58,224 nucleotides of DNA, taken from NCBI GenBank assembly GCA_035504215.1, contig DATJSI010000142.1, forward strand, positions 1 to 58,224, in the 5' to 3' direction. Source of the stretch: Mycobacteriales bacterium (lineage in GTDB: Bacteria > Actinomycetota > Actinomycetes > JAFAQI01). A model generated the notes under the pieces. The model was not told the origin of the DNA. It saw only the letters and a list, made by a program, of their open reading frames with translations, and did no database searches. Each line of letters opens with the position of its first letter. The first letter of the stretch is position 1. Made by a program: the position numbers and the translations under genes. Below, piece by piece: positions 32,136 through 56,490 of this stretch.

Positions 32136-32144
32136 GTGTCCGTG

Positions 32145-32765: not shown

Positions 32766-32806
32766 CCGACTGCCCCTGACCACCCGACGCCCACCCGAGG
32801 TCTGCC

Positions 32807-33916: not shown

Positions 33917-33918
33917 CC

Positions 33919-34513: not shown

Positions 34514-34801
34514 ATGTTCGGCCGCCGCAAGCGCAAGGCCGCCAAGCTGGGGCCGGCCCGCCGTACCGCATACGAGTGGTCCGCGGTCGCGCTCCCGCGC
34601 CCCGTTCCGGTCACCGAGGTCGTGGCCGAGCCGGCGGCCGCGCCGATGACGACGGTCCAAGCGCCGGTGCGATCGAGCGTGCGACTCGGCTTCGCGGACG
34701 GGAGCTCGATGGACATCGACGACGCCTCGGTGGTGTCGGACGAGATCCGTGCGACTGCACGCAGGCTGCTCGAAGCCTCCGGGTCGGGGCAGGACCGGTA
34801 G
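34514..34801 (+). CDS. Small basic-N-terminal protein of unknown function
   Basis: A 95-residue protein, last in the Roadblock operon, 22 bases after the GTPase. It starts with a Lys/Arg-rich stretch (MFGRRKRKAAKLGPARR), has a Pro/Val/Ala linker, and ends in a compact part, VRLGFADGSSMDIDDASVVSDEIRATARRLLEA. AAGGG precedes the ATG. No homologue recognised; possibly a membrane- or nucleic-acid-touching partner of the GTPase. Confidence 0.55.
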   Translation: MFGRRKRKAAKLGPARRTAYEWSAVALPRPVPVTEVVAEPAAAPMTTVQAPVRSSVRLGFADGSSMDIDDASVVSDEIRATARRLLEASGSGQDR

Positions 34802-34854
34802 GTCACCACCTGCCGGTTGGTGGCTGGGAGCGGCAACGGCCGCTTCGACTCGTC

Positions 34855-35886: not shown

Positions 35887-35904
35887 GCCTGCGTCCTGCT
35901 CGGG

Positions 35905-39688: not shown

Positions 39689-40135
39689 GTGCTGGACCGG
39701 AGCCGGGGAGTCGTGGTGGCACCGACGACGAATGACTGTCTGGTCCTCAACCTGCCCCGGATCCAGGATCCGCGCGGCAACCTCACCTTCATCGAGTCCG
39801 GTCGCCATCTCCCGTTCGACATCGTCCGGGTCTTCTACCTGTACGACGTACCAGGAGGGGAGTCCCGAGCCGGTCACGCCAACAAGACGCTGCAGCAGGT
39901 CATCATCGCGGCGTCCGGCAGCTTCGACGTCGTCGTCGACGACGGACGCAACCAGGAGCGGTTCCATCTCAACCGGTCCTACACGGGGCTCTACATTCCG
40001 GGCATGATCTGGCGCGACATCGACAACTTCTCGTCCGGCTCCGTGTGCCTGGTCCTGTGCTCCGACTTCTACGACGAGGACGACTACCACCGCGACTACG
40101 ACGAGTGGCGCGCGATCGCGCTGTCCGTGCAGTGA
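39689..40135 (+). CDS. qdtA: dTDP-4-keto-6-deoxyhexose 3,4-isomerase-like cupin (QdtA/FdtA/WxcM)
   Basis: A 148-residue small cupin. RIQDPRGNLTFIESGRHLPFDIVRVFYLYDVP and ESRAGHANKTLQQVIIAASGSF follow the WxcM/FdtA pattern, with the catalytic His in GHAN and YIPGMIWRDIDNFS later. These enzymes turn dTDP-4-keto-6-deoxyglucose into the 3-keto sugar for amination. GTG 39689 has GGTAGGAG 5 bases upstream; GTG 39716 is an alternative with GGGGAG. It overlaps the aminotransferase by 4 bases, giving the usual pair for dTDP-Qui3N or dTDP-Fuc3N. Which epimer cannot be told. Confidence 0.82.
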   Translation: MLDRSRGVVVAPTTNDCLVLNLPRIQDPRGNLTFIESGRHLPFDIVRVFYLYDVPGGESRAGHANKTLQQVIIAASGSFDVVVDDGRNQERFHLNRSYTGLYIPGMIWRDIDNFSSGSVCLVLCSDFYDEDDYHRDYDEWRAIALSVQ

Positions 40136-41265
40136 TCCGGGTTCCGTTCCTGGAGTTGGCGCGCGCCGACGCTGCGATTCGCGACGAGTTGGCACAGGCC
40201 GCGGCCGAGGTCATCGACAGCGGCTGGTTCGTCCTCGGCCCCCAGGTCGAGGCGTTCGAAGCGGAGTTCGCCGCCTACGTCGGCGCCAAGCACTGTGTGG
40301 GCGTCGGCAACGGGCTCGATGCGATGACGCTGTGCCTGCAGGCCTGGGGCGTCGGTCCGGGACACGAGGTCGTCGTCCCGTCGAACACCTATATCGCGAC
40401 CTGGCTAGCCGTGACGCGGTGTGGCGCCACCTTGGTGCCGGTTGAGCCGTCGGAGTCGAGCTTCAACCTCGAAGCGGCCGCGGTTGCCGATGCCCTGACC
40501 GAGCGCACGTCGGTGGTCCTGCCCGTGCATCTCTACGGCCGGCCGGCCGACGTACCGGAGATTCGCAGGACCGCGACCGCGGCCGGCGTCAAGGTCCTGG
40601 ACGACGCCGCGCAGGCGCATGGCGCCGAATGTGCCGGGGGGCGGGTCGGTGCGCTCGCGGATGCGACGGCATGGAGCTTCTACCCGACTAAGAACCTCGG
40701 CGCGGTCGGTGACGCAGGTGCAGTGACGACGGATGACGACGACACTGCCGCTGCCCTGCGGGCGCTTCGCAACTACGGGACGACGAGCAAGTACGTCAAT
40801 GACCGGCTCGGCGTCAACAGTCGGCTCGACGAGCTGCAGGCGGCGTTGCTCCGGGTGAAGCTGCGCCATCTCGACGAGTGGGTGCAGCAGCGCGGGCGGA
40901 TCGCGCGGGCCTACCTTTCCGGACTTGCCTCGAACGGCCTGATGCTGCCCAGCGCACCCAGCGAAGGACGTCACGCCTGGCATCTGTTCGTCGTGCGGCA
41001 TCCCCGTCGAGATGATCTGCAACGCGAGCTCACGGCGCGGGGCATCGGCACGCTGATCCACTATCCGATCCCGCCGCACCTGCAAGGCGCGTACGCGTCG
41101 ATGGGGAAGGGGGTCGGAAGCTTCCCGGTCAGCGAGGCCATCCATCGCGAGGTGCTCAGCCTGCCGCTTGCGCCGTACCTCTCCGATGACGAGGTCTCTA
41201 CCGTCATCGACACAACGGTTGATGCGTGTCGCGTCGTCGGCGAGCAGGCACTGTCGATGCCCTGA
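40132..41265 (+). CDS. qdtB: DegT/DnrJ/EryC1 sugar aminotransferase (QdtB/FdtB-like)
   Basis: A 377-residue PLP enzyme that aminates the keto sugar made by the upstream isomerase. It begins with VPFLELARADAAIRDEL, and SGWFVLGPQVEAFEAEFAAY leads to the substrate loop. VLDDAAQAHGAE holds the PLP-contacting Asp, and WSFYPTKNLGAVGDAGAV contains the Schiff-base Lys. LNYGTTSKY-like RNYGTTSKY and NSRLDELQAALLRVKL follow as in the family. GTG 40132 shares GTGA with the qdtA stop. It ends 2 bases before a convergent glycosyltransferase. Confidence 0.9.
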   Translation: MIRVPFLELARADAAIRDELAQAAAEVIDSGWFVLGPQVEAFEAEFAAYVGAKHCVGVGNGLDAMTLCLQAWGVGPGHEVVVPSNTYIATWLAVTRCGATLVPVEPSESSFNLEAAAVADALTERTSVVLPVHLYGRPADVPEIRRTATAAGVKVLDDAAQAHGAECAGGRVGALADATAWSFYPTKNLGAVGDAGAVTTDDDDTAAALRALRNYGTTSKYVNDRLGVNSRLDELQAALLRVKLRHLDEWVQQRGRIARAYLSGLASNGLMLPSAPSEGRHAWHLFVVRHPRRDDLQRELTARGIGTLIHYPIPPHLQGAYASMGKGVGSFPVSEAIHREVLSLPLAPYLSDDEVSTVIDTTVDACRVVGEQALSMP

Positions 41266-41267
41266 GC

Positions 41268-42185
41268 TCAGCCGACCGGGCGCGTCCTTCGCAACCGCCT
41301 GGTCCCGACCTCCGTCAATAGCCCGCCCCACTGCCGCGCATAGGCCCAGTCGCCGTGGCGAGCCCGGCGCAGGCTGGGGCGCAGCGAGCGAAGCAGGGCG
41401 CCCGCGTCCGCCCGAAGCGACAGTCCTGCCCATTTGCGGGAGATCACCAGCTTGCTGAGCCACATCTCCTCGGCTCTTGCATTCGACATCGAAGTCGGAA
41501 GGTAGCGGTACGCGGCTACCACGTCCTCGTGATGAGCGAACGGCCACCGACAAGCCAGCCGCAACCACATGTCCCAGTCCTCGTAGAACAGGTCCTCGTC
41601 CCAGCCGCCTACTTCGACGAGGGCATCGCGGCGGATCATCGTCGCCATGGCCGGCAGGAAGTTCCGCCTCAACAGCGTGCGGAAGAACCGGTCGTCCGGC
41701 GGGAGCCCGTCGGGAACGAAGCGCTCGAGGAAGGTGCCACCGAGTGGCGCTCCGTCCTCGGCGATCAACAGCGCGTCGCCGTAGACGACCACGGTCTGGT
41801 CGGGTGCGCGGGCGAAGGCGCCGAGCTGGACTTCGGTCTTGCCCGGCATCCAGTAGTCGTCCGCCGCGATCGTGTGCAGGTAGTCCCCGCGACTGTGTGC
41901 CAATGCCTCGTTCAGGCTGCGGCACAGGCCGACCGGCTGTGGATGCCCGATCAGCTGGTGGCTCGGGAAGTGCTGCTCGACAAAGCGGGTGCCGACGTCG
42001 AAGGACGCGTCCGACGAGCCGTCGTCGACGAAGACCAGGTGGTTCGGCGGCACGGTCTGGTCGCGGACCGACTCGAGGCACTCGGTGATGTACGCCGCAT
42101 GGTTGTGGCTGATGACCACTGCCGTCGTCTCGGGCCGGACTGCACGCTCGACCTCGTGCCCCGAATCCGCCGGGCTATCCGTCAC
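41268..42185 (-). CDS. Glycosyltransferase family 2
   Basis: A 305-residue GT-A enzyme. TAVVISHNHAAYITECLESV starts the fold, LVFVDDGSSDASFDVG holds the first Asp pair, and YLHTIAADDYWMPGKTE is the metal-binding DDD-like motif. DALVEVGGWDEDLFYEDWDMWLRL completes the acceptor-side ED motif. It probably adds one sugar to the repeat unit. GTG 42185 overlaps the upstream methyltransferase by 11 bases and is last of a coupled four-gene minus-strand run. An upstream in-frame start at 42206 or 42236 is possible. Confidence 0.87.
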   Translation of the reverse strand: MTDSPADSGHEVERAVRPETTAVVISHNHAAYITECLESVRDQTVPPNHLVFVDDGSSDASFDVGTRFVEQHFPSHQLIGHPQPVGLCRSLNEALAHSRGDYLHTIAADDYWMPGKTEVQLGAFARAPDQTVVVYGDALLIAEDGAPLGGTFLERFVPDGLPPDDRFFRTLLRRNFLPAMATMIRRDALVEVGGWDEDLFYEDWDMWLRLACRWPFAHHEDVVAAYRYLPTSMSNARAEEMWLSKLVISRKWAGLSLRADAGALLRSLRPSLRRARHGDWAYARQWGGLLTEVGTRRLRRTRPVG

Positions 42186-42939
42186 GACGCACCACCCAGC
42201 GCGCATAGTCGTAGCCGTCGTCGCCGCTCGTCGCATGGGTCAGGACCTGAAGGCCGTTGCCGACGAGGAGCCGCTCGGCCTGCGGCGCCGGAACCACGAG
42301 CATGGAGATTCCGGACAGCCCCCGTCGATGGAGACGTTGGTGCGACCAGCCCAGTGTGCGCAGCAACCGGTAAGCCCGAAACCGGGGCTGGATGCGAGCC
42401 CGCCAGGTCTTCACGCGCTCCGGCAGCTCGATCACCGCGACTCCACCGGGCCGGAGTGCGCCCGCGATGACGCCGACCGCGGCGTCGACCGCCTGGAGGT
42501 CGGGCAGATGCTGGAGGACCAGCAGCGACACTGCGAAGTCGTGTTCGCCGTGCTCGTCGACCTCCGACGGCGCGACGGTCGTGACATTGGTGATGCCGGC
42601 CGCGGCAGCCCGTTCGTTCAGCGTCTTGCGCATGCCGGGGGAGATATCGACGGCGGTGACATGCGCGAACCGTTTGGCGAGGGCGAACGACAGCCTCCCG
42701 GTGCCCGCGCCGTAGTCCAGAGCACGCGCCGCACCGGTCGGCCGGGCAAGCTCAAGGCACTCGGAGACCGCGGCCTCACCGGTCTCGTAGAACTCGGACA
42801 GGTCGTCTTCCCACCCGCGATGGCGACGGTCGCGAACGGTCAGCACGGCCCAGTCCGGATCGTCGGCTCCGAGCGAGGACCACACCTCCTCCTGGCGCTG
42901 CTCGTCGCGGTCCGGGCGAGGTGGCTTGCGACCGGTCAT
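42175..42939 (-). CDS. Class I SAM-dependent methyltransferase
   Basis: A 254-residue protein. ALDYGAGTGRLSFALAKRF is motif I (near 75), VTAVDISPGMRKTL motif II, and FAVSLLVLQHLPDLQAVDAAVGVI with ALRPGGVAVIELPE motifs III-IV. Placement between two glycosyltransferases suggests methylation of a sugar in the repeat unit. ATG 42939 was chosen because it shares ATGA with the upstream stop; the frame is open further but would enter the upstream gene. Confidence 0.85.
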   Translation of the reverse strand: MTGRKPPRPDRDEQRQEEVWSSLGADDPDWAVLTVRDRRHRGWEDDLSEFYETGEAAVSECLELARPTGAARALDYGAGTGRLSFALAKRFAHVTAVDISPGMRKTLNERAAAAGITNVTTVAPSEVDEHGEHDFAVSLLVLQHLPDLQAVDAAVGVIAGALRPGGVAVIELPERVKTWRARIQPRFRAYRLLRTLGWSHQRLHRRGLSGISMLVVPAPQAERLLVGNGLQVLTHATSGDDGYDYARWVVRRDG

Positions 42940-43769
42940 GTGACCGTCCTCCCGAGCGCTCGGCGGACGCCGAGGCCAACCCTGATGGCGGCGATAGCAG
43001 CACGCCCCCGCCACCCGCCGAGCCGGCGTCGGCACAACCGTTCGAGCGCACCGATCCAGCGTGCACCCGCGCCTGAGCTACCGCGATCGTGGCGAACCGT
43101 CACCTCGGGCGCCAGCCGGAAGCGTGCACCTCGCACGGTCGCTGCCGTGCCCCACGCGACGTCCTCGGCGTACACCAGCTCATCCTCCGGAACCGGGCCG
43201 AAGCGTTCGAACGCATCGGGTGCGAGCAGCAGGCAGGCCATGCACAACCAGTCGACGTCCTGGGCGCGCGTGGACTGCCGGCGGGTCAGGAACATGCCAT
43301 GCAGCCACGGCAGCAGGTGGCTGAGGAACAGGAAGTACGCGGTGACCGAACCGAGGGTGAGTGGGCCGCCGGCCGCACCGACCTGCAGCCGGCCGTCCGC
43401 GCCCGCGAGCAGTGGCGCGACACCGGTGACACCCGGCTGCAGGTGCAGGGCGAGGGTCGCCAGCTGGGTCCGGTCGAGATCCACGTCGGGGTTCAGCAGC
43501 AGCCACGGCCGGGTCGCCGGCGCCCCTGCCGAGTCGACTGCACGGTTGACCGCCGCGGCGAAACCGAGGTTCTGACCCAGCAGCAGCGCGGTCGCGTCAT
43601 GAGCGCCGCAGACCCGCTTCACGCCGTCCGGGTCGTCGCCGTTGTCGACGACGATCACGTGTTGCCCGGACAGGGCGTCGGAGCGCAGCCGGGCCTCGAC
43701 GTTTCCCAGGCTGCGGTAGTTGACGAGGATCACGGTGAGGTCGAGATCCGCGGACGCCGGCGCCGTCAT
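42936..43769 (-). CDS. Glycosyltransferase family 2 (rhamnosyltransferase-like)
   Basis: A 277-residue GT-A enzyme. LTVILVNYRSLGNVEARL and VIVVDNGDDPDGV open the fold, LGQNLGFAAAVNRAV and WLLLNPDVDLDRTQL are WbbL-like donor motifs, and VPEDELVYAEDVAWGTAATVRG holds the acceptor-side acidic residues. WbbL-type enzymes often use dTDP-rhamnose, but the donor is not shown here. Both ends overlap neighbours by ATGA. Confidence 0.87.
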   Translation of the reverse strand: MTAPASADLDLTVILVNYRSLGNVEARLRSDALSGQHVIVVDNGDDPDGVKRVCGAHDATALLLGQNLGFAAAVNRAVDSAGAPATRPWLLLNPDVDLDRTQLATLALHLQPGVTGVAPLLAGADGRLQVGAAGGPLTLGSVTAYFLFLSHLLPWLHGMFLTRRQSTRAQDVDWLCMACLLLAPDAFERFGPVPEDELVYAEDVAWGTAATVRGARFRLAPEVTVRHDRGSSGAGARWIGALERLCRRRLGGWRGRAAIAAIRVGLGVRRALGRTVT

Positions 43770-44887
43770 GAGGTCGCCGTTCCCACCGTTGAACCGGTGG
43801 TTCCGCCGGCGGTCCGCAGCGCGTCGAGCGCCGCGGCCGCGCTCGCCGCCCAGCTGTACTCCGCAACTCGCCGGTGACCGGCTGCGACGAGCTCGCGACG
43901 CCGCGGGGCGTCGTCGAGGAGGTCACCGATCGCGGCGCGCCAGCCGTCGACGTCGAGGGACGGGACGACCAGCCCGGCGTCACCGGCCACTTCCGGCAGG
44001 CTCCCGGCGTGGCTCACGATGACGGGGATACCGGCGTACATCGCCTCCAGCACCGGGATGCCGAAGCCTTCGAAGAGGGAGGGAAACGCGAGCAGGTCGG
44101 CGGCGACGTACTCGGCCGCCAGCTGTGCCGGGCTGACGTACCCGGTGAAGGAGACCGCCTCGCCGAGCCGGTGGCGCAGGTCCCGCTCGATCTCACGCCC
44201 GGCGTCCGGCACCCGGCCGACGACCCGCAGCTCGATCTCCAGGCCGGTAGCGCGCAGGGCAGCAACCGCGGCAGCCACCGTGCCGAGGTTCTTGCGCGGG
44301 AGGACGTTGCCGACAACGAGCACCCGGTTCGTGCCGCTGCGTCCTTCGGAGCGAGGTACGGCGTCGATGAGCTGGGCCAGGCCCGGGTCGACGGCGTTCG
44401 GCGCGACGGAGACCCGGTCAGGATCGACGCCGAACCTCTCGATGACGCCCTGCCGGGTGAACTCCGACGGGACGAGAAGCGCGGCCGCCGACCGCGCGCT
44501 ACGCCGGATCGACGCCCGCACCCGGGCCCTGAAGGCAGCCGGCAGCCAGTCGGTGCTGTCCGGGTCGAACGGCGAGAGGTCGTGAACGACGACCACGCAC
44601 GGGCGCCGGGTCAGCGGCATCGTGTAATGCACGAGCAACGCCGCCGCGCGGACGCTGCTCGCCACCCGCGGCAGGTCGACGGCAACCCGGCGGATCGCGC
44701 GGGCGGACACGATGCGCGGGGTCCGCCCGGTGAGCGCGGCGACCTCGTCGCAGCCGGCGGCGGTGGCCGCGAAGGCGAGTGGCTCGACGCCGGGCGAAGT
44801 GGCCAGCTCGCGGGCGATGTTCGCGGCCCAGGTCTCGTTCCCGGTCTGGCGACCTCCGACGTGGTGCACGTCGATCAGAAAGGTCAT
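43766..44887 (-). CDS. Glycosyltransferase family 4
   Basis: A 373-residue GT-B enzyme. The start MTFLIDVHHVGGRQTGNETW has the acceptor-side Gly-rich loop. VLVVGNVLPRKNLGTVAAAV starts the C-terminal domain, and FPSLFEGFGIPVLEAMYAGIPVIVS is the donor-binding ExFGxxxxE motif. It is the first of four coupled minus-strand genes. The frame stays open to 45370, but ATG 44887 matches GT4 N termini. Confidence 0.9.
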   Translation of the reverse strand: MTFLIDVHHVGGRQTGNETWAANIARELATSPGVEPLAFAATAAGCDEVAALTGRTPRIVSARAIRRVAVDLPRVASSVRAAALLVHYTMPLTRRPCVVVVHDLSPFDPDSTDWLPAAFRARVRASIRRSARSAAALLVPSEFTRQGVIERFGVDPDRVSVAPNAVDPGLAQLIDAVPRSEGRSGTNRVLVVGNVLPRKNLGTVAAAVAALRATGLEIELRVVGRVPDAGREIERDLRHRLGEAVSFTGYVSPAQLAAEYVAADLLAFPSLFEGFGIPVLEAMYAGIPVIVSHAGSLPEVAGDAGLVVPSLDVDGWRAAIGDLLDDAPRRRELVAAGHRRVAEYSWAASAAAALDALRTAGGTTGSTVGTATS

Positions 44888-44988
44888 CGCCGGCGGCCCG
44901 GCTGACGTGCTGCCACGCCGAAAAACATAACCGCCGCGAGCCGGGGTTCCCGTGGCATGCGGTGCGCCGGACCAGCGCGTCGCGCGGG

Positions 44989-46296
44989 TTACTCCGCGCC
45001 GAGCACCTGCCAGCGGATGCCCTGGGTCCGCACGAGCATGCCCGCGAGCCGGACCAGGTAGAACGCCAGCAGGCCGGCCCACACGCCACCGAGCCCCCAG
45101 TGGAAGTGCAGCGCGGCAAGGTCGATCGGCACGAAGGCGCCGATACCGGCGACAAGCGTGAGCAGGGCCATGAACCGCACGTCCCCGGCGCCGATGAGGA
45201 CGCCGTCGAGTGCGAACAACACGCCCGCCGGCAGCCACAGCACGCAGAACCACGGCCACATCACGTGCATCTGATGGATGACCGCCGGGGCTCCGCTGAA
45301 GATTCTCGGCACCGGCCACCACAGCGCGGCATATCCGACCGCGAAGGCCACACCGGCCCACGCGCCCCATCGAGCGATCCGCCAGGTCACCCGGCGGGCA
45401 GCCGCCGCGTCGCCGCCGCCCAGTGCCGCGCCCACGAGGGACTGCGCGGCGATCGCCACCGAGTCGAGCAGCAACGCGGTGAACTCGTCGATCTGCATCC
45501 CGACCTGATGAGCGGCCAGCTGCGCCGTACCCATCCGCGCCGCCACCGCGGCTGCGGTGAGGAACGACGCCTGGAACCCGGCGTTACGGATCACGAGGTC
45601 GCGGCCGACGCCCAGCTGCTTGCGAATGGTCGGCCAGACGACCCGCTTGGGACCCTCCAGCGCGGCGATGAACAGCACCGCGCCGACCACCTGCCCGGCC
45701 AGGTTCGCCATCGCTGACCCTCGCAGGCCCAGGCCCGCGGTGTAGACGAGCAACGGGCAGAGCGTGGCCGACACCGCGTTCGCGGCCAGTACGAACACCA
45801 CCGGCTGGCGGGTGCGTTGCACGCCGCGCATCCAGCCGTTCCCGGCCAGTACGACGAGCACCCCAGGGAGGCCGGCGAGACCGATCCGCAACCACTCGAC
45901 GGCATCGGACCGCACCGCGACCCGGCTGCCGGCCAACACGTGGGCGAGCGGCACCGCGAACAGCTCGCCCGCACCGGCAAGCACGATGCCGGTGAGCAGC
46001 GCCAGCCACGAGGCCTGCACACCTTCGGCACGCGCGAGGTCGAGCCGGCCGGCGCCGTACGCGCGAGCCACTCGCCCGGTGGTGCCGTACTCCACGAAGT
46101 CGCCGACGACCAGGAGGAGAGCCACGACGGCGACCGCGATCCCGAGCGCGGCGAGCGGGCGGGTGCCGAGATGGCCGACCACGGCCGTGTCGACGAGGAG
46201 ATAGGTGGGCTCGGCGGCAAGAACCACGAACGCCGACGCGGTCAGCGACAGCAGCCGCCGGGTGGGGATGTCGGCTGCGTCCCCCGACTCGCTCAC
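44989..46296 (-). CDS. MATE family efflux transporter (DinF-like)
   Basis: A 435-residue membrane protein with about 12 helices in two halves. LLSLTASAFVVLAAEPTYLLVDTAVVGHLGTRPLAALGIA is the usual first-helix region including the conserved P and D. GMRGVQRTRQPVV-type loops and the repeated half around RNAGFQASFLTAAAVAARMG with LAAHQVGMQIDEFTALLLDS follow. MATE carriers exchange drugs or metabolites for Na+ or H+. It starts at GTG 46296. Separate promoter likely, as 101 bases without features separate it from the GT4 gene. Confidence 0.88.
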   Translation of the reverse strand: MSESGDAADIPTRRLLSLTASAFVVLAAEPTYLLVDTAVVGHLGTRPLAALGIAVAVVALLLVVGDFVEYGTTGRVARAYGAGRLDLARAEGVQASWLALLTGIVLAGAGELFAVPLAHVLAGSRVAVRSDAVEWLRIGLAGLPGVLVVLAGNGWMRGVQRTRQPVVFVLAANAVSATLCPLLVYTAGLGLRGSAMANLAGQVVGAVLFIAALEGPKRVVWPTIRKQLGVGRDLVIRNAGFQASFLTAAAVAARMGTAQLAAHQVGMQIDEFTALLLDSVAIAAQSLVGAALGGGDAAAARRVTWRIARWGAWAGVAFAVGYAALWWPVPRIFSGAPAVIHQMHVMWPWFCVLWLPAGVLFALDGVLIGAGDVRFMALLTLVAGIGAFVPIDLAALHFHWGLGGVWAGLLAFYLVRLAGMLVRTQGIRWQVLGAE

Positions 46297-46666: not shown

Positions 46667-48565
46667 GTGCGCGCGTTGTTTGCCTTCCGGCGGCGCGCCG
46701 ACTTCCTGCTGGCGGTCGTCGACCTCGGGCTCGGAGTGCTGGCCGGCTACGTCGCGTACTCGCTGCGCTTCGGTGCCACGAGCCTGCCCGGGTTCTACGT
46801 CGTGCGCTACCAAGCGATGACGGTCGGCCTTGCGGTCGGCTCGGTCATCGCCGGCCGGGCCGCCGGGCTCTACCGCCGCGACGTGCTCCGGCCCGGCCAG
46901 TCCACGGTCGAGCCGGCGGTCGAGTCCGCGGTCGCGGTCGGACTCGCCGTCTTCCTCGTCAACCAGTTCAACTTCCACGGCGCGCTGTCGCGATCGTGGA
47001 TCGGTCTGGTCACGCTTGCGCTCTTGCTGTTCGCCATCGCCTCGCGCTCGGTCCTGCGCGCCGGGCGGCGCATGCTCGTCCCGTTCGGCATCGCGCTCGA
47101 GCGCTACGCGCTGGTCGGCGACGACGCCGCGGGACGCCGGCTCCTGGCCGACCTCACCCGTGCCGCCGGCACGCCGTTCAGCGTGGTCAGCATTCTGCCG
47201 AGGAACCTCGCTCCGGACGCGCTGCTCGCCGAGGCGAGGAGCCTCCGGCTCGACGGCCTGATCCTGACCGCCGACGCCGATCCGGTGACGGTCGGGCGGC
47301 TGGCCGCTGCGCTCTCCGGCGAGGGCGTGGACGTCCTGCTCGCGCCCGGGCTGTCCGGCCTGGAGTCGCGAGTCGCGAGCGTCGCGATGCTGTACGGCGT
47401 ACCGCTGCTGAGAGCCGCCGGCATGGCGCCGCGCAGACGTGCGGTGCGGACCCGTGCCCACAAGCGGGTCCGCCGGGTCGCGATCGTCGGCACCCGCGGG
47501 ATCCCGGCGAACTACGGCGGCTTCGAAACCTTCGCCGAGCGGCTGGCGCTCTACCTGACCGAGCAGGGTATCGAGGTGACCGTCTACTGCCGTCGACACC
47601 ATGCGACGGCCGGCAGCAGCTGGCAGGGAGTGCGGCTGGTCACCCTGCCGACGATCCCGACGAAATACCTCGACACGGTCGTGCACACGTTGCTGTCCAC
47701 GGTTCATCTGGTGACCCGGACGCGGATCCGCGACGTCGTGCTGTGCAACTCCGCGAACGCGCCCGCGCTACCACTGTTGCGGCTGAGCGGGAGGCGCGTG
47801 CTGCTCAACGTCGACGGGCTGGAGTGGCGGCGACGCAAGTGGGGGATCGTCGGGCGGACCTGGTACCGGTTCGGCGAGTGGCTCACCGTGCGAATGGCCG
47901 ACGTCGTCGTGACCGACGCGGACGAGGTGCGCACCTACTACCACGTGCGCCACGACACCGACTCGGTCATGGTTCCGTACGGCGCGGACCTCGTGCCGCG
48001 CGGGCAGCCGCTTGCGGCTGACGTCGGTGTCCGGCCGGACCGCTTCGTGCTCTACGTCGCGCGTTGGGAGGTGGAGAACAACCCCGAGCTGGTCGCCCGG
48101 GCGCACGCACGAGCCCGGACCGGGCTCGGCCTGGTGATGCTCGGCCGATCGACCTACGACCCGGCTCTCGAGCGCGCGGTTCGCGCCGCCGCGGCGCCCA
48201 CCGCCGTCCTGCCCGGCGCGGTCTTCGGCGAGGCGTACGTCGCGCTGCAGAGCAACGCCCGTTGCTACATCCACGCGACGGAGGTGGGCGGGACCCATCC
48301 GGCGTTGATCGAGGCGATGGGCGCCGGCAACCTGTGCCTGGTCCTGGACACCCCGGAGAACCGGGAGGTGGCCGGCCCGCAGGCCTGGTACTTCGCCGAC
48401 GAAGCCGATCTCACCGGCCTGATCGAGCGGGTCGACCGGCTCGATCCCGGCGAGCTCGAGACGCTCCGCACAGCGACCCGGCGGCGGGCCGCCGAACGGT
48501 ACTCCTGGACCGATGTCGGCCGGCAGTACGTCCGCCTTCTGACCCGTGACAGCGCCGCTCACTGA
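46667..48565 (+). CDS. Fusion: polyprenyl-sugar transferase N-terminal scaffold + GT4 (DUF1972) glycosyltransferase
   Basis: A 632-residue two-part protein. Residues 1-135 contain four helices as in WbaP/PglC-related initiating transferases, then a CoA_binding_3-type Rossmann part (ERYALVGDDAAGRRLLADL, LDGLILTADADP). The catalytic Bac_transf domain expected after it is absent. Instead, from residue 267 a DUF1972/GT4 enzyme begins (VRRVAIVGTRGIPANYGGFE), continuing with NVDGLEWRRRKWG, VLYVARWEVENNPEL and GGTHPALIEAMGAGN, typical of rhamnosyltransferases. GTG 46667 starts the frame. The scaffold may anchor the GT to the initiating complex (inference). The Wzy_C gene follows 37 bases on. Confidence 0.85.
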   Translation: MRALFAFRRRADFLLAVVDLGLGVLAGYVAYSLRFGATSLPGFYVVRYQAMTVGLAVGSVIAGRAAGLYRRDVLRPGQSTVEPAVESAVAVGLAVFLVNQFNFHGALSRSWIGLVTLALLLFAIASRSVLRAGRRMLVPFGIALERYALVGDDAAGRRLLADLTRAAGTPFSVVSILPRNLAPDALLAEARSLRLDGLILTADADPVTVGRLAAALSGEGVDVLLAPGLSGLESRVASVAMLYGVPLLRAAGMAPRRRAVRTRAHKRVRRVAIVGTRGIPANYGGFETFAERLALYLTEQGIEVTVYCRRHHATAGSSWQGVRLVTLPTIPTKYLDTVVHTLLSTVHLVTRTRIRDVVLCNSANAPALPLLRLSGRRVLLNVDGLEWRRRKWGIVGRTWYRFGEWLTVRMADVVVTDADEVRTYYHVRHDTDSVMVPYGADLVPRGQPLAADVGVRPDRFVLYVARWEVENNPELVARAHARARTGLGLVMLGRSTYDPALERAVRAAAAPTAVLPGAVFGEAYVALQSNARCYIHATEVGGTHPALIEAMGAGNLCLVLDTPENREVAGPQAWYFADEADLTGLIERVDRLDPGELETLRTATRRRAAERYSWTDVGRQYVRLLTRDSAAH

Positions 48566-48602: not shown

Positions 48603-50102
48603 GTGACCCCAGCTGTGGTCGCAGCGTCGCCCACGACCGCTGTGGCCCCTCCCTCGCACGCGCCCGAGCGTTCGTCGCGCGTGCTTGCTCTGCTGGCCGG
48701 AAACCTGCCGGCCGCCGCGGCGCTCGCCGCCTGCACCTGGTGGCTGTTGCTCGCCCCGCGCCTCGAAGGCGGCCGGGGTGCGGGCGCCGTGACCGGCGGC
48801 GCCATCCTGACCGCACTCGCGGTCCTCGCCAGCCGGCCCGAACGGGTGCTGCCGCGCCCTGCGGTCTGGCTCGCGCTGGCGATCAGCGTGGCGGCATTCG
48901 GCGTCGCCGTGCTCGCTCCCACCGGCTGGGCTGGTGCGCCGACCGCCGCCAGCTACGTCTGCGCGAGCTGGACCACGATCGCGGTTGCCGCCGCGGTCGT
49001 ACGGTCACCCAAGCTGCGGAACCTCGTCCTGCTGCTGGTGGTCGGGGGAGTCCTCATCGAGCTCGCCGAGTCCTGGATGGCCTGGTGGGGTGGCACCGAC
49101 GCCAGCGTCCCGATCAGCGGGACGTTCTACTGGTACGACCCGTTTGCTGCGTTCATGCTGGCCGGCACGGTCATCGGTCTGTCGTACTGGCTGCGGCGCT
49201 CGGGGCCGCTGGCGCTGTTCGGGCTGGTGGGCGCCGCGCTCGGCAGCATCGGGATGGTCTACTCCACGAGCCGGGCCGCCATCGCCTGCTTCGCCGTTGC
49301 CATCGGCTGCGTCGCGGTCGGGGCCGTGTGGGGCCGCGGCCGGGTGGGCGCGAAGCGGCTCGCGATCGGAGCCGCGGTCGTCGGCTTCGCGGTCTGGGTC
49401 ATCGGTGGGCCGCCGTTCTTCCCGCACCGCTCGCTGCCCTTCGCCGGCACCGCCGGCCGAGCCGCGGGACAGTCCCTCGGCCAGAACGGCAGCTACCGGC
49501 TGGAGTTCTGGCGCGAGGCGCTCACTGTGTTCCGCCGGCACCCGCTGGTCGGCGGTGGCTACCACTCGCTGGCGTCCGCTGCCGTGGGTCACGTCCCGCC
49601 CACCTGGTCGCTCTCGCCGCTCGCCCACAACGGGTACCTGCAGGCGCTCTCGGACGGCGGGCTGCTGCTCGGCGTACCCTTCCTGCTCGCTCTTGCGGCG
49701 ATCTCGTGGTACGTCGTCGCAGCGCTGATCGGCGCGGTTCGACGCCGCGACTTCTCGACCGGCGGGTTCGTCGTTCCGCTCTGCCTCGGTGCGCTGCTCG
49801 TCCACTCGGCAGTTGACTTCGACTGGTCCTACGCAGCCGACTTCGAGGTCGTCGCGATCCTTGCCGGGCTGGTCGCCGCGGCGCGCTGGGCCGCGCCTGC
49901 CGATGGCTCGGCCGCAGAACGGGCGGCCGCGACCGGCCGCCCGGGTGCCCGGCTGCTTTCCGGAGCAGTCCTCGTCGGTGTGGCGCTGCTCGCAGTGGCC
50001 GCCGGCGTCGCCCACAACGGCGACTTCAAGCAGTCGCTGCCGATCGGATCCAGCGCATCGCGGTCCGTCGTCCACCACTCGACCAGCGGGGGTAAGGCGT
50101 GA
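48603..50102 (+). CDS. Wzy_C family membrane protein (O-antigen ligase or pilin O-oligosaccharyltransferase type)
   Basis: A 499-residue protein with about 11-12 hydrophobic segments. The large outer loop includes YRLEFWREALTVFRRHPLVGGGYHSLASAA and PLAHNGYLQALSDGGLLLGVPFLL, the Wzy_C signature with the conserved R and H-N. This family includes O-antigen ligase WaaL, polymerases, and the pilin O-glycosylases PglL/TfpO. The stop overlaps the pilB start by 4 bases (GTGA), so it is probably translated together with pilus assembly genes. It starts at GTG 48603. Ligase versus pilin glycosylase cannot be decided from sequence. Confidence 0.82.
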   Translation: MTPAVVAASPTTAVAPPSHAPERSSRVLALLAGNLPAAAALAACTWWLLLAPRLEGGRGAGAVTGGAILTALAVLASRPERVLPRPAVWLALAISVAAFGVAVLAPTGWAGAPTAASYVCASWTTIAVAAAVVRSPKLRNLVLLLVVGGVLIELAESWMAWWGGTDASVPISGTFYWYDPFAAFMLAGTVIGLSYWLRRSGPLALFGLVGAALGSIGMVYSTSRAAIACFAVAIGCVAVGAVWGRGRVGAKRLAIGAAVVGFAVWVIGGPPFFPHRSLPFAGTAGRAAGQSLGQNGSYRLEFWREALTVFRRHPLVGGGYHSLASAAVGHVPPTWSLSPLAHNGYLQALSDGGLLLGVPFLLALAAISWYVVAALIGAVRRRDFSTGGFVVPLCLGALLVHSAVDFDWSYAADFEVVAILAGLVAAARWAAPADGSAAERAAATGRPGARLLSGAVLVGVALLAVAAGVAHNGDFKQSLPIGSSASRSVVHHSTSGGKA

Positions 50103-51760
50103 AGCAGCTCGGCGACATCCTGGTCGAGGACGGCCTGGTCACTGAGGACCAGCTCGCCGACGCCTACGACGAGCACCAGCGCGTCGGGCGCGCCCTCGGT
50201 CGCGTCCTGGTCGACCGCGGCGTGCTCACCGAGAGCCAACTGGTCGCAGCGCTCGCCCAGCAGATCGGCATGCGCTTCGTCGACCTCACGGAGTTCCCGA
50301 TCGACGGCTCGGCGCTGTCGACCGTGCCCCCGATCGTCTGCCGCCGCTACAACGCGCTCCCGATCGGGTTCGAGGACGGCAAGCTGCTGGTCGCGATGTC
50401 GGACCCGGCGAACGTCTTCGCGCTCGACGACATCCGCTCGATCACCGGCATCGAGGTCAAGCCGGTCGTCGCGACCAAGTCCGACGTCAGCGCGGCGATC
50501 AACCGCTTCCACCGCGCGGACTCCGACCTCGATGACCTCACGATGGCCCTCGATGAGGAAGAGGACACCGGGCTCGACAACCTCAAAGAGGTCGTCGAGG
50601 ACGCCCCGATCGTCAAGTTCGTCAACCTGCTGATCACGCAGGCGATCAACGACCGGGCCTCGGACATCCACCTCGAGCCGACCGAGCGGGACCTGCGCGT
50701 GCGGTTCCGCATCGACGGCGTGCTGCACGAGATCATGCGCTCGCCTCGCAACATCCAGTCCGGCGTGACCAGCCGCCTGAAGATCATGGCGGACATCAAC
50801 ATCGCCGAGCGCCGGATCCCGCAGGACGGCCGGCTCTCGGTCACCGTGAGCGGGAAGAAGATCGACCTGCGGGTGGCGACGCTTCCCACGGTGTGGGGCG
50901 AAAAGGTCGTCATGCGAGTGCTGGACAACTCGACCGCGATGCTGAACCTGTCCGATCTCGGGTTCAGCGACGGCAACTACGAGCGGTACTCGGTGAGCTT
51001 CCAGAAGCCGTACGGGATGATCCTCGTGACGGGACCGACCGGATCCGGGAAGTCCACGACGCTCTACGCGACGCTGAACATCGTCAGCCGGCCGGAGATC
51101 AACGTGATCACGGTCGAGGACCCCGTTGAGTACCGAATTGCCGGGATCAACCAGGTTCAGACCAACCCGAAGGCGGGCCTGACCTTCGCGACTGCACTCC
51201 GGTCGATCCTGCGTTCCGACCCCGACGTCGTCCTCATTGGTGAGATCCGGGACCACGAGACGGCCCAGATCGCGATCGAGGCCGCCCTCACCGGTCACCT
51301 CGTGCTCACCAGCTTGCACACCAACGACGCGCCTTCGGCGATGACCCGACTGGTCGAGATGGGGATCGAGCCGTTCCTGGTCGGTTCGGCGCTTGACTCC
51401 GTTCTCGCGCAGCGGCTCGCCCGGCGGCTGTGTGAGAAGTGCAAGGAGCCCTACACGCCGGAGCCCTCGGTGCTGCGCTCGGCGCAGTTCCCCTGGGAGG
51501 ACGGCGAGCCGCTGCCGACGCTCTACCGCGCAGTCGGGTGCTCGGCCTGCTCGAAGACCGGCTACCGCGGCCGGCTCGCGCTGCACGAGGTGATGACCGT
51601 GAGCGAGGACATCGAGCGGCTCACGGTGGCACGAGCCTCGGCGATCGAGATCGGCCGTACCGCACGGGAGCAGGGGATGCGACTACTGCGCCTCGACGGG
51701 ATGGACAAGGCCGTGGCCGGCGTCACGTCACTGGAGGAGATTCTCCGCGTCGTGGTCTGA
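50099..51760 (+). CDS. pilB: Type IV pilus assembly ATPase PilB
   Basis: A 553-residue cytoplasmic motor ATPase for pilus extension. Residues 1-150 form an MshEN/T2SSE_N domain with two LG-x-x-L-V-x-x-G repeats (QLGDILVEDGLV, ALGRVLVDRGVL). The catalytic core has DIHLEPTERDLRVRFRIDG, Walker A GPTGSGKSTTLYA (about 312), the Asp box VEDPVEYRI, and Walker B VVLIGEIRDHETA with LTSLHTND. The zinc-binding tetracysteine module (CEKCKEPY, CSACSKTGYRGR) near 445-490 is typical of PilB/GspE and absent in PilT. GTG 50099 overlaps the upstream gene; pilT follows 115 bases on. Confidence 0.95.
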   Translation: MKQLGDILVEDGLVTEDQLADAYDEHQRVGRALGRVLVDRGVLTESQLVAALAQQIGMRFVDLTEFPIDGSALSTVPPIVCRRYNALPIGFEDGKLLVAMSDPANVFALDDIRSITGIEVKPVVATKSDVSAAINRFHRADSDLDDLTMALDEEEDTGLDNLKEVVEDAPIVKFVNLLITQAINDRASDIHLEPTERDLRVRFRIDGVLHEIMRSPRNIQSGVTSRLKIMADINIAERRIPQDGRLSVTVSGKKIDLRVATLPTVWGEKVVMRVLDNSTAMLNLSDLGFSDGNYERYSVSFQKPYGMILVTGPTGSGKSTTLYATLNIVSRPEINVITVEDPVEYRIAGINQVQTNPKAGLTFATALRSILRSDPDVVLIGEIRDHETAQIAIEAALTGHLVLTSLHTNDAPSAMTRLVEMGIEPFLVGSALDSVLAQRLARRLCEKCKEPYTPEPSVLRSAQFPWEDGEPLPTLYRAVGCSACSKTGYRGRLALHEVMTVSEDIERLTVARASAIEIGRTAREQGMRLLRLDGMDKAVAGVTSLEEILRVVV

Positions 51761-51875: not shown

Positions 51876-53339
51876 ATGCAGGTGGAGACTCAGGGCAACG
51901 ACGCTTCGTCCATTCCGCCGATGGTTTCGTCGGAATCGGCTCCGCCGGTCGGCCTAAGCCCGCTCGACCCGGGGTGGTCGCCGGACGGCGGCACGGTGAC
52001 CTCACCGTCCGCGCCGCCCGCCACGCTCCTGCCGTCGGTGGCGCCCGTTGCGCCGTCGGTCGCGCCGGCTGCCCCGGCCCCGGTACCCGCCGCCGCGGCG
52101 CCACTGCCGTCGGTGGCTCCTACGCTGCCGCCGCCGGCTGCGCCAGTGGCGCCTCCGATGGCTCCGCCCATGGCTCCGCCGCCGAACGAGCCTCCGCTCG
52201 GCTCGGTCAACCCCCAGGTCGACCTCGACACCAGCTATGCGCGTGCGGCACTGGAGGAGGACAGCGGCCTGGAGGCCGGCTTGCTCTCCGAGCTGCTGGT
52301 GGAGTGCCAGGACAGCGGTGCGTCCGACCTGCACCTGTCAGCGGGCGCGCGCCCGACGTTGCGCATGAACGGCACGCTGGTCCCGATGGAGGACCGTGCG
52401 ATCCTCACGCCTCCGGTCATCCAGCGGATGATGTACGCGATTCTCACCCAGAAGCAGCGGGAGCGTTTCGAGGAGGAGCTCGAGCTGGACTTCGCGTTCG
52501 CGCTTCCGGGCCGGGCCCGCTTCCGGGTCAACCTCTACCGCCAGCGGGACGCCCTCGGTGCGGCGTTCCGGATCATCCCCTACGAGATCAAGGCGCTCGA
52601 GGACCTCGGCATCCCGCCGAGCGTGGCCAACTTCGCCATGCTGCCGCGCGGGTTCGTCCTGGTCACCGGGCCGACCGGTTCCGGTAAGTCGACGACCCTG
52701 GCCTCTCTGGTCGACCTGGCCAACCGCCAGCGGCACGACCACATCATGACGGTCGAGGACCCGATCGAGTTCCTGCACAGCCACAAGGCCTGCCTGGTCA
52801 ACCAGCGCGAGGTCGGCGAGGACACCTGGTCGTTCCAGAACGCCCTGAAGCACGTTCTGCGCCAGGACCCCGACATCATCCTGGTCGGCGAAATGCGTGA
52901 CCTCGAGACCATCTCGGTGGCACTGACCGCCGCCGAGACCGGCCACCTGGTGTTCGCGACCCTGCACACCCAGGATGCGGCGCAGACCATCGACCGGGTC
53001 ATCGACGTCTTCCCGTCGCACCAGCAGCAGCAGATCCGCGTCCAGCTCGCCGGTGCGATCCAGGGCGTCGTCTGCCAGACGTTGTGCAAGACCTACGACG
53101 GCAAGGCGCGTGCGGTCGCGACCGAGGTCATGGTGGCCACCCCCGCCATCCGCAACCTGATCCGCGAGGGCAAGACCCACCAGATCTACTCCGCACTCCA
53201 GGCCGGGGCGCGGTACGGGATGCACACCCTCGACCAGCACCTGGCCGAGCTGGTGAAGGCGGGCCGGATCACCTACGAGACCGCGCTCGACAAGTGCCAT
53301 CACGTCGAGGACTTCAACCGGCTGACCGGCCGGGCCTGA
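51876..53339 (+). CDS. pilT: Type IV pilus retraction ATPase PilT with Pro/Ala-rich N-terminal extension
   Basis: A 487-residue ATPase. Residues 1-115 are low complexity and rich in Pro, Ala and Ser (several APV, PSVAP and APPM units). The PilT core (about 130-487) follows: ASDLHLSAGARPTLRMNG, Walker A GPTGSGKSTTLASL (about 265), VEDPIEFLH, Walker B IILVGEMRDLETI, and LHTQDAAQTIDRVIDVFP. The C-terminal AIRNLIREGKTHQI with the AIRNLIRE retraction motif marks it as PilT rather than PilB. No tetracysteine. Normal PilT is 340-370 residues, so the extension is lineage specific. Confidence 0.95.
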   Translation: MQVETQGNDASSIPPMVSSESAPPVGLSPLDPGWSPDGGTVTSPSAPPATLLPSVAPVAPSVAPAAPAPVPAAAAPLPSVAPTLPPPAAPVAPPMAPPMAPPPNEPPLGSVNPQVDLDTSYARAALEEDSGLEAGLLSELLVECQDSGASDLHLSAGARPTLRMNGTLVPMEDRAILTPPVIQRMMYAILTQKQRERFEEELELDFAFALPGRARFRVNLYRQRDALGAAFRIIPYEIKALEDLGIPPSVANFAMLPRGFVLVTGPTGSGKSTTLASLVDLANRQRHDHIMTVEDPIEFLHSHKACLVNQREVGEDTWSFQNALKHVLRQDPDIILVGEMRDLETISVALTAAETGHLVFATLHTQDAAQTIDRVIDVFPSHQQQQIRVQLAGAIQGVVCQTLCKTYDGKARAVATEVMVATPAIRNLIREGKTHQIYSALQAGARYGMHTLDQHLAELVKAGRITYETALDKCHHVEDFNRLTGRA

Positions 53340-53350
53340 GAGGACGCACC

Positions 53351-54577
53351 ATGGCAACAGTCACGACGTACAAGTACGCGGTCCGCGACCGATCAGGCAA
53401 GCTGGTCAACGGCGAGCTCGCGGCCGAGACGGAGGCCGCCGTCGTCCAGCGGCTGAAGTCGATGGGCTACGCCCCGGTGTCGGTGACCGAGGCGCACTCG
53501 GGCCTGCAGACCGAGATCAAGATCCCGGGCATGGGTACCAAGGTCAAGCTCAAGGACCTGGCGATCTTCTCGCGGCAGTTCGCCACGATGATCAACTCCG
53601 GCCTGTCACTGATGCGGGCCCTCACCATCCTGGCGGAGCAGACCGAGAACAAGGAGCTCGCGCGGGTTATCGGCGAGGTTCGCAACGAGGTCGAAGCCGG
53701 GTCGGCGCTGTCCCTCGCGATGGGCAAGCACCCCAAGGTCTTCCCACCGCTGATGGTGAACCTCTGCAAGGCCGGCGAGATCGGTGGCTTCCTCGACGCG
53801 GTCCTGCTCCAGATCGCCGAGAACTACGAGGCGGAGGTCAAGCTCCGCTCGAAGATCAAGGCCGCGATGACCTACCCGATCGTGGTCGGCTGCATCGCGA
53901 TCATCGCCTTGATCGTCATGCTGACGTTCGTCGTTCCTTCGTTCGCGAAGATCTTCTCCTCGCTGGGATCGCAGCTTCCCGCCCCGACCCAGATGCTGGT
54001 CGACATCTCGCATGCGATGAAGTTCATCCTGCCGATCATGATCATCGGCGGGATCGCCGGGCTCATGACCTGGAAGCGGATCAAGCACCAGGAGCGCGTC
54101 CGCCGGATCGTCGACCCGTGGAAGCTGCGCCTTCCGGTGTTCGGGATGTTGTTCCAGAAGGTCGCCATCGCGCGGTTCGCCCGCAACCTGGGCACGATGA
54201 TCCACTCAGGCGTCCCGATCCTCCAGGCACTCGAGATCGTTTCGGAGACCACTGGCAACTGGACCATCACCGCGGCCGTGCGCGACGTGCAGGACAGCGT
54301 CCGCAACGGCGAGTCGCTCACCCAGCCGCTGAGCCAGCACGATGTCTTCCCACCGATGGTCGTGCAGATGATGGCGGTCGGCGAGGAGACCGGCGCGCTC
54401 GACACGATGCTGCACAAGATCGCCGAGTTCTACGACCAGGAGGTCGAGGCGACCACTGAGGCACTGACCGCTCTGATCGAGCCGATCATGATCGCCGTGC
54501 TCGGTGGCCTCGTGGGCTCGATGATCGTCTGTCTCTACCTGCCGATCTTCGACGTGTACAACCACGTCGGAAGCTGA
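53351..54577 (+). CDS. pilC: Type IV pilus inner-membrane platform protein PilC
   Basis: A 408-residue membrane protein that couples PilB/PilT to pilin handling. It has two repeated T2SF domains. The first has FSRQFATMINSGLSLMRALTILAEQT and the second FARNLGTMIHSGVPILQALEIV. Helices are AAMTYPIVVGCIAIIALIVM (about 175), a second near 225, and the C-terminal EPIMIAVLGGLVGSMIVCLYLPIFD. It starts 11 bases after the pilT stop with GAGAGGA upstream. A 12-bp stem terminator follows, so pilB-pilT-pilC and the pilin operon are separate transcripts. Confidence 0.96.
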   Translation: MATVTTYKYAVRDRSGKLVNGELAAETEAAVVQRLKSMGYAPVSVTEAHSGLQTEIKIPGMGTKVKLKDLAIFSRQFATMINSGLSLMRALTILAEQTENKELARVIGEVRNEVEAGSALSLAMGKHPKVFPPLMVNLCKAGEIGGFLDAVLLQIAENYEAEVKLRSKIKAAMTYPIVVGCIAIIALIVMLTFVVPSFAKIFSSLGSQLPAPTQMLVDISHAMKFILPIMIIGGIAGLMTWKRIKHQERVRRIVDPWKLRLPVFGMLFQKVAIARFARNLGTMIHSGVPILQALEIVSETTGNWTITAAVRDVQDSVRNGESLTQPLSQHDVFPPMVVQMMAVGEETGALDTMLHKIAEFYDQEVEATTEALTALIEPIMIAVLGGLVGSMIVCLYLPIFDVYNHVGS

Positions 54578-54927: not shown

Positions 54928-55368
54928 ATGCTCGCTCGACTCCGCAAGATGCAGGAGGAGAATGAGGGTGGCTTCACTCTCATCGAGCTCCTGGTCGTGA
55001 TCATCATCATCGGCATCCTTGCCGCGATCGCGATCCCGGTCTTCCTCCAGCAGCGCAAGAAGGGCTACGACGCGGCCGTCAAGTCCGACCTCGTCGCCGC
55101 CGCGACTGCTGAGGAGACCTACCTGACCGACTTCAACACCTACACCGACAGCACCAGCAACCTGGCCACCAAGGAGTCCTTCAAGTTCTCCGCCGGTGGC
55201 GACTACAACGGTGGCACTGCGGCTCTGACCATCGTGTCCAACACGAACCAGGGCTACTGCATCACCGGCGTTGCCGCGTCGGGCAACACGTGGTTCTACG
55301 ACAGCAGCGCGGGCGGCGTTCAGCCGGCGGCGTCGTCGTACACCTGTGGGGTCAGCGGCGCCAGCTGA
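54928..55368 (+). CDS. Type IV pilin, probable major pilin
   Basis: A 146-residue prepilin. A 15-residue basic leader ends at GG before F16, and Glu is at mature position 5 (FTLIELLVVIIIIGILAAIA), so prepilin peptidase should cut and methylate it. The N-terminal helix is followed by a short globular domain with a C-terminal Cys pair (GYCITG... and YTCGV) making the D-region loop. The protein ends in VSGAS, with serine last. GGAAGGA lies before the ATG. The riboswitch sits directly upstream and a strong hairpin directly downstream, fitting a highly expressed major subunit. Confidence 0.95.
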   Translation: MLARLRKMQEENEGGFTLIELLVVIIIIGILAAIAIPVFLQQRKKGYDAAVKSDLVAAATAEETYLTDFNTYTDSTSNLATKESFKFSAGGDYNGGTAALTIVSNTNQGYCITGVAASGNTWFYDSSAGGVQPAASSYTCGVSGAS

Positions 55369-55483: not shown

Positions 55484-55930
55484 GTGTTCCGCACCGCCCA
55501 ACAGCGGACCGCCGACGCCACTGACGCCGGCTTCAGCATGATCGAGCTCCTGGTCGTCATCATCATCATCGGCGTCCTGGCCGCGATCGCGATCCCGGTC
55601 TTCCTGAGCCAGCGCGACAAGGGCTACGACGTGGCGGTCAAGTCCGACCTCGTCGCCGCCGCCAACGCCGAAGAGGCCTACAGCACCGACTTCAACACCT
55701 ACACCGACAGCGCCAGCCAGCTGAAATCGGCCGAGGGCTTCAAGTTCTCCCAGGCCGGCGAGTACAGCGGGGGCACGCCGGCGATGACGATCGTCTCTGC
55801 CGGGTCGAAGGGCTACTGCATCACCGCGACGGCCGCGTCCGGAAACACCTGGTTCTACGACAGCAACAACGGGGGACTCCAGCCACTCAGCACCTCTGGC
55901 TACACCTGCTCGGTATCCGGAGCCTCATAG
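55484..55930 (+). CDS. Type IV pilin paralogue 2
   Basis: A 148-residue prepilin. Leader of 16 residues ends in AG before F17, with Glu at mature position 5 (FSMIELLVVIIIIGVLAAIA). From KGYDVAVKSDLVAAANAEE onward it is closely similar to pilin 1, including the D-loop (GYCITATAASGNTWFYDS and YTCSVSGAS). It ends in the same VSGAS. GTG 55484 follows GGAGG at 7 bases. Clearly a tandem duplicate of pilin 1. Confidence 0.94.
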   Translation: MFRTAQQRTADATDAGFSMIELLVVIIIIGVLAAIAIPVFLSQRDKGYDVAVKSDLVAAANAEEAYSTDFNTYTDSASQLKSAEGFKFSQAGEYSGGTPAMTIVSAGSKGYCITATAASGNTWFYDSNNGGLQPLSTSGYTCSVSGAS

Positions 55931-55981: not shown

Positions 55982-56431
55982 GTGATCGCAGCGCACCACC
56001 GGCCGCAGACCGACGAGGTCGATGCCGGGTTCACCCTGATTGAGCTGCTTGTCGTGATCATCATCATTGGCATCCTTGCGGCGATTGCCATCCCGGTCTT
56101 CCTGAACCAGCGGCTCAAGGCCTATGACACGGCCTCCAAGGAGGACCTGCGCAACCTCGCCAACTTCGAAGAGATCTACCTCGACGACTTCGCCAGCTAC
56201 GGGACGATCGCCGAGATCCAGGCAAAGGAACCGACGATCAAGCCGAGCGGCGGCGTCACGCTGTCCGTGGTCGACTTCATCGGCAACTACGGATACTGCC
56301 TGTCCGCAAGCCATGCCGGCGACCCCAAGGTCTGGTACTACGACAGCCAGGGCGGCGGGCTGCAGCCCAACGGCGCAACCGGGTGTCCGGTCACCACCGG
56401 CGGCACCCCGGGCGACAGCGTCACAGGTTGA
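55982..56431 (+). CDS. Type IV pilin paralogue 3
   Basis: A 149-residue prepilin with a 16-residue leader ending AG before F17 and Glu at mature position 5. The helix is nearly identical to pilin 1, but the globular part has diverged (YDTASKEDLRNLANFEEIYLDDFASYG) and ends in GTPGDSVTG, not Ser. The Cys pair is kept (GYCLSAS, GCPVTT). GTG 55982 follows GGGGAGGG at 5 bases. Probably a minor subunit. Confidence 0.93.
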   Translation: MIAAHHRPQTDEVDAGFTLIELLVVIIIIGILAAIAIPVFLNQRLKAYDTASKEDLRNLANFEEIYLDDFASYGTIAEIQAKEPTIKPSGGVTLSVVDFIGNYGYCLSASHAGDPKVWYYDSQGGGLQPNGATGCPVTTGGTPGDSVTG

Positions 56432-56490
56432 CCGGGCGATCCACCCAGATGGCTATCAATCATCGCCATGCTCGTGCCGATAGAGCCGAC

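Follow-up and report, generated by a model that had tools for sequence, protein, structure and literature searches.

The Wzy_C gene that immediately precedes pilB in the stretch of DNA analysed here (58,224 nt, hereafter the window, i.e. the entire contig C142 of a draft genome, G000, of 150 contigs and 3.47 Mb) is best explained as encoding a Wzy_C-fold (WaaL/PglL-type) O-oligosaccharyltransferase acting on type IV pilus subunits, a reading that we regard as likely. The pili of the source bacterium, an uncultured actinobacterium, and those of many distant relatives, are probably sugar-coated. In the mechanism that we infer, in its transferase activity, its pilin acceptor, its glycan and its sequence of events alike, a short glycan would be assembled on undecaprenyl diphosphate by the cassette's glycosyltransferases, the cassette flippase would turn it outward, and the extracytoplasmic loop of the Wzy_C protein (Arg224, Arg299 and His342) would move it onto Ser/Thr residues of membrane-held pilins before their polymerisation by PilB/PilC. 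Pilin O-glycosylation by this enzyme had been proposed in the initial annotation. Because the linkage to pilB and pilin genes is conserved, it is now much stronger than a one-genome guess and is the best-supported reading, although the supporting argument from a C-terminal Ser fails and that from a glycan donor is half supported.

The features of the window on which the analysis bears are the following:

32136..34491, plus strand, Roadblock, DUF4388 and small GTPase genes (Pfam; synteny)
34576..37792, mixed strands, start of the sugar cassette: methyltransferase (plus), sulfotransferase (minus) and GNAT (minus) genes (Pfam)
38103..39680, plus strand, Wzx-type flippase of the cassette (Polysacc_synt, E 3e-16)
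39689..41265, plus strand, FdtA ketoisomerase and DegT aminotransferase, amino-deoxysugar synthesis (FdtA, E 3e-52; DegT, E 2e-111)
41268..45370, minus strand, GT2, methyltransferase, GT2-like and GT4 genes of the cassette (Pfam)
46667..48565, plus strand, TM-GT4, a fused membrane/CoA_binding_3-like region and DUF1972/GT4 glycosyltransferase (Cps2T-like, E 1e-45; TIGR03025, N-terminal part)
48603..50102, plus strand, Wzy_C / O-antigen-ligase-fold membrane protein, proposed pilin O-oligosaccharyltransferase (PF04932, E 1.2e-14)
50099..50102, plus strand, GTGA, overlap of the Wzy_C stop and the pilB start (sequence)
50099..51760, plus strand, pilB, pilus extension ATPase (T2SSE, E 6e-141; TIGR02538, 650 bits)
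51876..53339, plus strand, pilT, retraction ATPase (TIGR01420, E 1e-144)
53351..54577, plus strand, pilC platform protein (ORF 53084-54577, probable start ATG 53351; T2SSF, E 5e-68)
54928..55368, plus strand, pilin 1, ending ...YTCGVSGAS (N_methyl, E 1e-7; sequence)
55484..55930, plus strand, pilin 2, ending ...YTCSVSGAS (N_methyl; sequence)
55982..56431, plus strand, pilin 3, ending ...PGDSVTG (N_methyl; sequence)

The Wzy_C ORF runs from a GTG start to a TGA stop, encodes 499 aa and matches PF04932 over residues 210-360 (54.8 bits against a gathering cut-off of 31.7). Its claimed GTGA overlap with pilB was confirmed (GTG start of pilB at 50099, overlap of 4 nt), and its end, placed at 50110 in the initial annotation, was corrected by 8 nt to the true stop at 50102. 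A 4-nt overlap (GTGA/ATGA) is likewise found in G004, G031, G038 and L138. pilB, pilT, pilC and the three N-methyl pilin genes all lie downstream of Wzy_C and on its strand. Further 3', the contig end truncates a PilV-like gene (56383-58224) whose product has a long repetitive extension, may act as a pilus adhesin and might also serve as an acceptor. A further pilin, 92% identical to pilin 1 and with the same ...CGVSGAS end, is encoded on another contig of the genome (C44:44229-44663, L168). A search of a plasmid collection returned no match.

Orthologues were found immediately upstream of pilB, on the same strand, at 12 loci from several actinobacterial families (G000, G004, G005, G006, G010, G022, G023, G031, G038, G062, G114 and the named record L138). 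The distance from the Wzy_C stop to the pilB start, measured at all loci but that of G062, is -4 nt at five of them and 37-91 nt at the other six. At the G062 locus (L075), the Wzy_C frame upstream of pilB seems broken, through a frameshift or an assembly error. In a set of 28 genomes, pilB was the neighbour of 8/8 recognised family members with a resolvable context vs 0/~37 other Wzy_C genes. Given this contrast and the 12 loci in several families, the coupling of Wzy_C to pilB goes far beyond chance. When 296 genomes of the class were searched by profile, the enzyme was retrieved from 13 and a close PilB from 69; their co-occurrence has a Fisher p of 1.2e-7, uncorrected for phylogeny, the 12 co-occurring genomes representing seven families.

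The ancestral gene order is Roadblock-DUF4388-GTPase-pilB-pilT-pilC-pilins (12 other genomes of the family and order); some genomes have, immediately 5' of pilB, an inserted sugar cassette of variable content whose last genes are TM-GT4 and Wzy_C. In many families of the class, the Roadblock, DUF4388 and small GTPase genes are linked to pilB and, by synteny, directly adjoin it in genomes lacking the sugar cassette; gene order suggests that they form a conserved pilus control module. In G031 the enzyme gene is the only one separating the pilus GTPase gene from pilB, which it overlaps by GTGA, and sugar genes are absent. In G017 it directly follows alaS-yqgF-mltG-aroE and reaches the contig edge, and pilB begins at the edge of another contig, so that their adjacency is consistent but unproven. 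The constant partner of the enzyme is the pilus, not the sugar cluster.

A phylum-wide search yielded more remote homologues (L228, L229, L230 and L231), the last three outside the class. That of L229 lies between pilin genes of a pilB-pilT-pilC-pilin...pilD-pilM-pilN cluster; that of L231 is directly downstream of a pilin gene on the same strand (ORF ends ~30 nt apart) and is followed by pilT; that of L230 is divergent from a pilin gene and is followed by a priming transferase gene. In L228 (MAG113), an ABC-exporter-like cassette, TM-GT4 and Wzy_C extend up to the contig end. Across lineages, linkage of the kind used to recognise a dedicated pilin O-oligosaccharyltransferase was found at 12 pilB-adjacent and 3 pilin-adjacent loci. 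The wider family is not strictly pilus-bound, since four Nocardioides-type genomes (L071, L140, L143 and L144), whose homologues form one monophyletic branch (100/100), have no pilB, and since a 28%-identical Wzy_C of G300 lies away from pilB, beside a PilT-like gene.

The AlphaFold2 model of the window protein (pLDDT 82.3, pTM 0.85) matched WaaL (7tpg) over 353 residues with a Z of 24.1, much higher than that of the runner-up; this was the sole clear structure match, and the protein's fold is predicted to be WaaL/PglL-like. Five residues (R224, R299, H342, H401 and D405) are invariant in 12/12 family members. The first three align with catalytic residues of PglL and WaaL (PglL residues from PMC3643930), and the C-terminal H401-x3-D405 aligns with the PglL-specific H400/E404 (PMC3643930). 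As H401 is absent in 12/12 well-aligned control Wzy_C proteins, H401-x3-D405 appears from the alignments to be the mark distinguishing the family from ordinary Wzy_C proteins. The catalytic R/R/H and GxG were also considered as oligosaccharyltransferase markers and rejected: generic Wzy_C controls have both, and features common to ordinary Wzy_C proteins are no proof of protein transfer. When compared with the PDB, the family profile had a single credible match, the oligosaccharyltransferase 9rmk (E 6e-4), and left 7tpg unmatched up to an E of 10; with a control profile built from other Wzy_C proteins of related genomes, WaaL 7tpg came first (1e-15) and 9rmk second. The structure search cannot decide between ligase and oligosaccharyltransferase because WaaL was its sole clear match and 9rmk was absent from its lists. 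Many family members carry a C-terminal extension, with TPR-like repeats in L229.

Two of the pilins had been described as ending in Ser right after a Cys loop. Ser is indeed the final residue of pilins 1 and 2, but it lies six residues beyond the last Cys (...YTC-GVSGAS and ...YTC-SVSGAS); pilin 3 ends in ...VTG. Major pilins of enzyme-positive genomes have varied ends (CSF, TCS, CPATN, PCT, CPATD, CTGY, CGTY and others), whereas ACS or VCS ends occur in the enzyme-negative G159, G256 and G072. A terminal Ser/Thr was counted by hand in 5/11 enzyme-positive vs 5/27 enzyme-negative genomes and is not significantly enriched (p 0.12). The C-terminal Ser thus does not hold as an argument for the modification site and, lacking a significant association, was rejected as a marker of the enzyme. 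Comparison of the pilins of enzyme-positive genomes revealed no acceptor motif common to them.

The ~14 kb located 5' of Wzy_C carry a flippase, glycosyltransferases, FdtA, a DegT aminotransferase, and methyl- and sulfotransferases, and had been put forward as the source of the donor glycan. This holds in part: a cassette with flippase is present in several genomes, but the enzyme of G031 has no adjoining sugar genes, that of G017 comes directly after aroE, and the window cassette is without priming transferase or Wzz. A search for these two functions found none on the window contig; in the rest of the genome, Wzz matches are on C57 and C28 (weak), and priming transferases on C112 and C57. Directly upstream of the window Wzy_C is TM-GT4 (632 aa), whose N-terminus is similar to polyprenyl glycosylphosphotransferases in their membrane/CoA-binding part but lacks their catalytic Bac_transf domain, and whose C-terminus is a Cps2T-like GT4. 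Full-length homologues occur in 9/296 class genomes, all nine directly upstream of a family Wzy_C and pilB. Within the sampled class, the fusion is seemingly confined to the pilus position; in G300, TM-GT4 adjoins pilB without a Wzy_C (L153:1-1377). Between the cassette and TM-GT4, the minus strand carries a gene for a small YdeI/OmpD-associated (OmdA) protein (46321-46587).

The window gene might instead encode a Wzy polymerase making an exopolysaccharide from the adjoining cassette, co-expressed with pili as twitching needs polysaccharide. The Wzy_C domain is indeed common to Wzy polymerases, the gene follows a 14-kb cassette that includes a flippase and glycosyltransferases, and coupling of pili to polysaccharide is known for Myxococcus EPS and the cyanobacterial hormogonium polysaccharide (PMC7484181, PMC9239167). 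We nevertheless consider a polymerase unlikely: the window contig has neither Wzz nor priming transferase, and some loci are free of a cassette (no adjoining one in G031, L229 and L231, none upstream in G017), both of which argue against it. Moreover, this genome already seems to have its polymerases in two other Wzy_C paralogues (on C57 and C28), both of which have a flippase after them, and the gene tracks pilB or pilins rather than sugar genes.

Transfer to protein could also be general, the main substrates being other exported proteins or PilV-like minor pilins and adhesins, with the gene merely housed in the pilus operon. Homologues in genomes without pilB, the lack of an obvious common acceptor site in pilins of enzyme-positive genomes and the many proteins modified by PglL-class enzymes (PMC12645811) fit such a role, which is still quite improbable in view of the tight, conserved pilB/pilin linkage, a trait typical of dedicated pilin enzymes and mostly missing for PglL enzymes (PMC12645811). 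As to a WaaL-like ligase that would place the glycan on a cell-wall or lipid acceptor and would only be regulated with pili, the predicted fold is closest to WaaL, yet the family profile, unlike the control Wzy_C profile, does not match 7tpg. Monoderm actinobacteria have no LPS, and the host is taken to be one of them, its lineage being assumed from related MAGs named Frankiales/Frankiaceae; we judge a ligase very improbable.

Pilin glycosylation by the Wzy_C enzyme, our preferred reading, would have wider implications. The pilin O-oligosaccharyltransferase classes covered by a 2025 review are from Gram-negative bacteria (PMC12645811), and a 2019 review assigns every actinobacterial pilus studied up to then to the Tad type (PMC6916266). 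Glycosylation of type IV pili of the window's kind is not known to have been reported for actinobacteria. If true, this reading extends pilus glycosylation to a large monoderm phylum with unstudied T4a pili, where phage defence and adhesion would be its likely roles, and offers a new enzyme family for glycoengineering to test. Gene context would be a route to such enzymes where signature domains fail. We see roughly even chances that these proteins constitute a separate class of pilin-dedicated O-oligosaccharyltransferases across Actinobacteria, distinct from TfpO, TfpM, PglS and PglL, often accompanied by a dedicated partner in which a membrane part and a glycosyltransferase are fused, and with a gene coupling to the extension ATPase that would let the glycosylation and extension functions be produced jointly.

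Among known systems, Wzx/Wzy-type EPS polymerases, including the C57 and C28 paralogues, share with the window enzyme the Wzy_C domain, the Arg residues, GxG and a nearby flippase; the C57 paralogue differs by its nearby Wzz and priming transferase, a Gln at the His342 position, the lack of H-x3-D and its location away from pilB. The S-layer O-oligosaccharyltransferases WsfB/WsaB of Gram-positive Bacillales resemble the family in their monoderm host and Wzy_C domain, WsfB having a C-terminal TPR (PMC2943079), whereas their acceptor is an S-layer protein and their gene lies in an S-layer glycan cluster, not in a pilus operon.

With Neisseria PglL, the family has in common the catalytic Arg/Arg/His, a Pro, GxG and an H-x3-acidic motif after the Wzy_C domain, and a C-terminal extension, in some cases TPR-like, is frequent among its members, comparable to that of PglL and WsfB (PMC2943079). 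At the PglL-specific positions Q178, N180, G316, G318, H400, E404 and P406, the window protein has W, D, G, G, H, D and D, i.e. it departs from PglL at Q178, E404 and P406, and also at N180, where the other 11 of the 12 family members keep Asn; GxG is also present in control Wzy_C proteins. Unlike PglL, the family is linked to pilus genes, and PglL_A (PF15864) and Wzy_C_2 (PF11846) were detected neither in the window protein (E up to 0.01) nor in four orthologues (E up to 1). For TfpM (NCBIfam NF058641), the window protein scored 17.4 bits against a cut-off of 600. Judged by these defining domain or model tests, the enzyme lies outside the PglL and TfpM classes. NCBIfam matches (TfpM, PEP_O_lig_1) were rejected as class evidence, being non-diagnostic because paralogues match as weakly.

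Acceptor sites are C-terminal residues for TfpO and TfpM and internal ones for PglS and PglL (PMC12645811). The actinobacterial enzymes differ from TfpO/TfpM in their monoderm hosts, in a gene that mostly precedes pilB and is coupled to it, in pilins without a conserved C-terminal Ser/Thr, and in the low TfpM score. TfpO/PilO of Pseudomonas aeruginosa and TfpM nonetheless share with the window enzyme the Wzy_C fold, a gene in the pilin locus and the absence of PglL_A/Wzy_C_2 domains, and the position of the L231 enzyme gene relative to its pilin gene reproduces a pilA-tfpO-like order.
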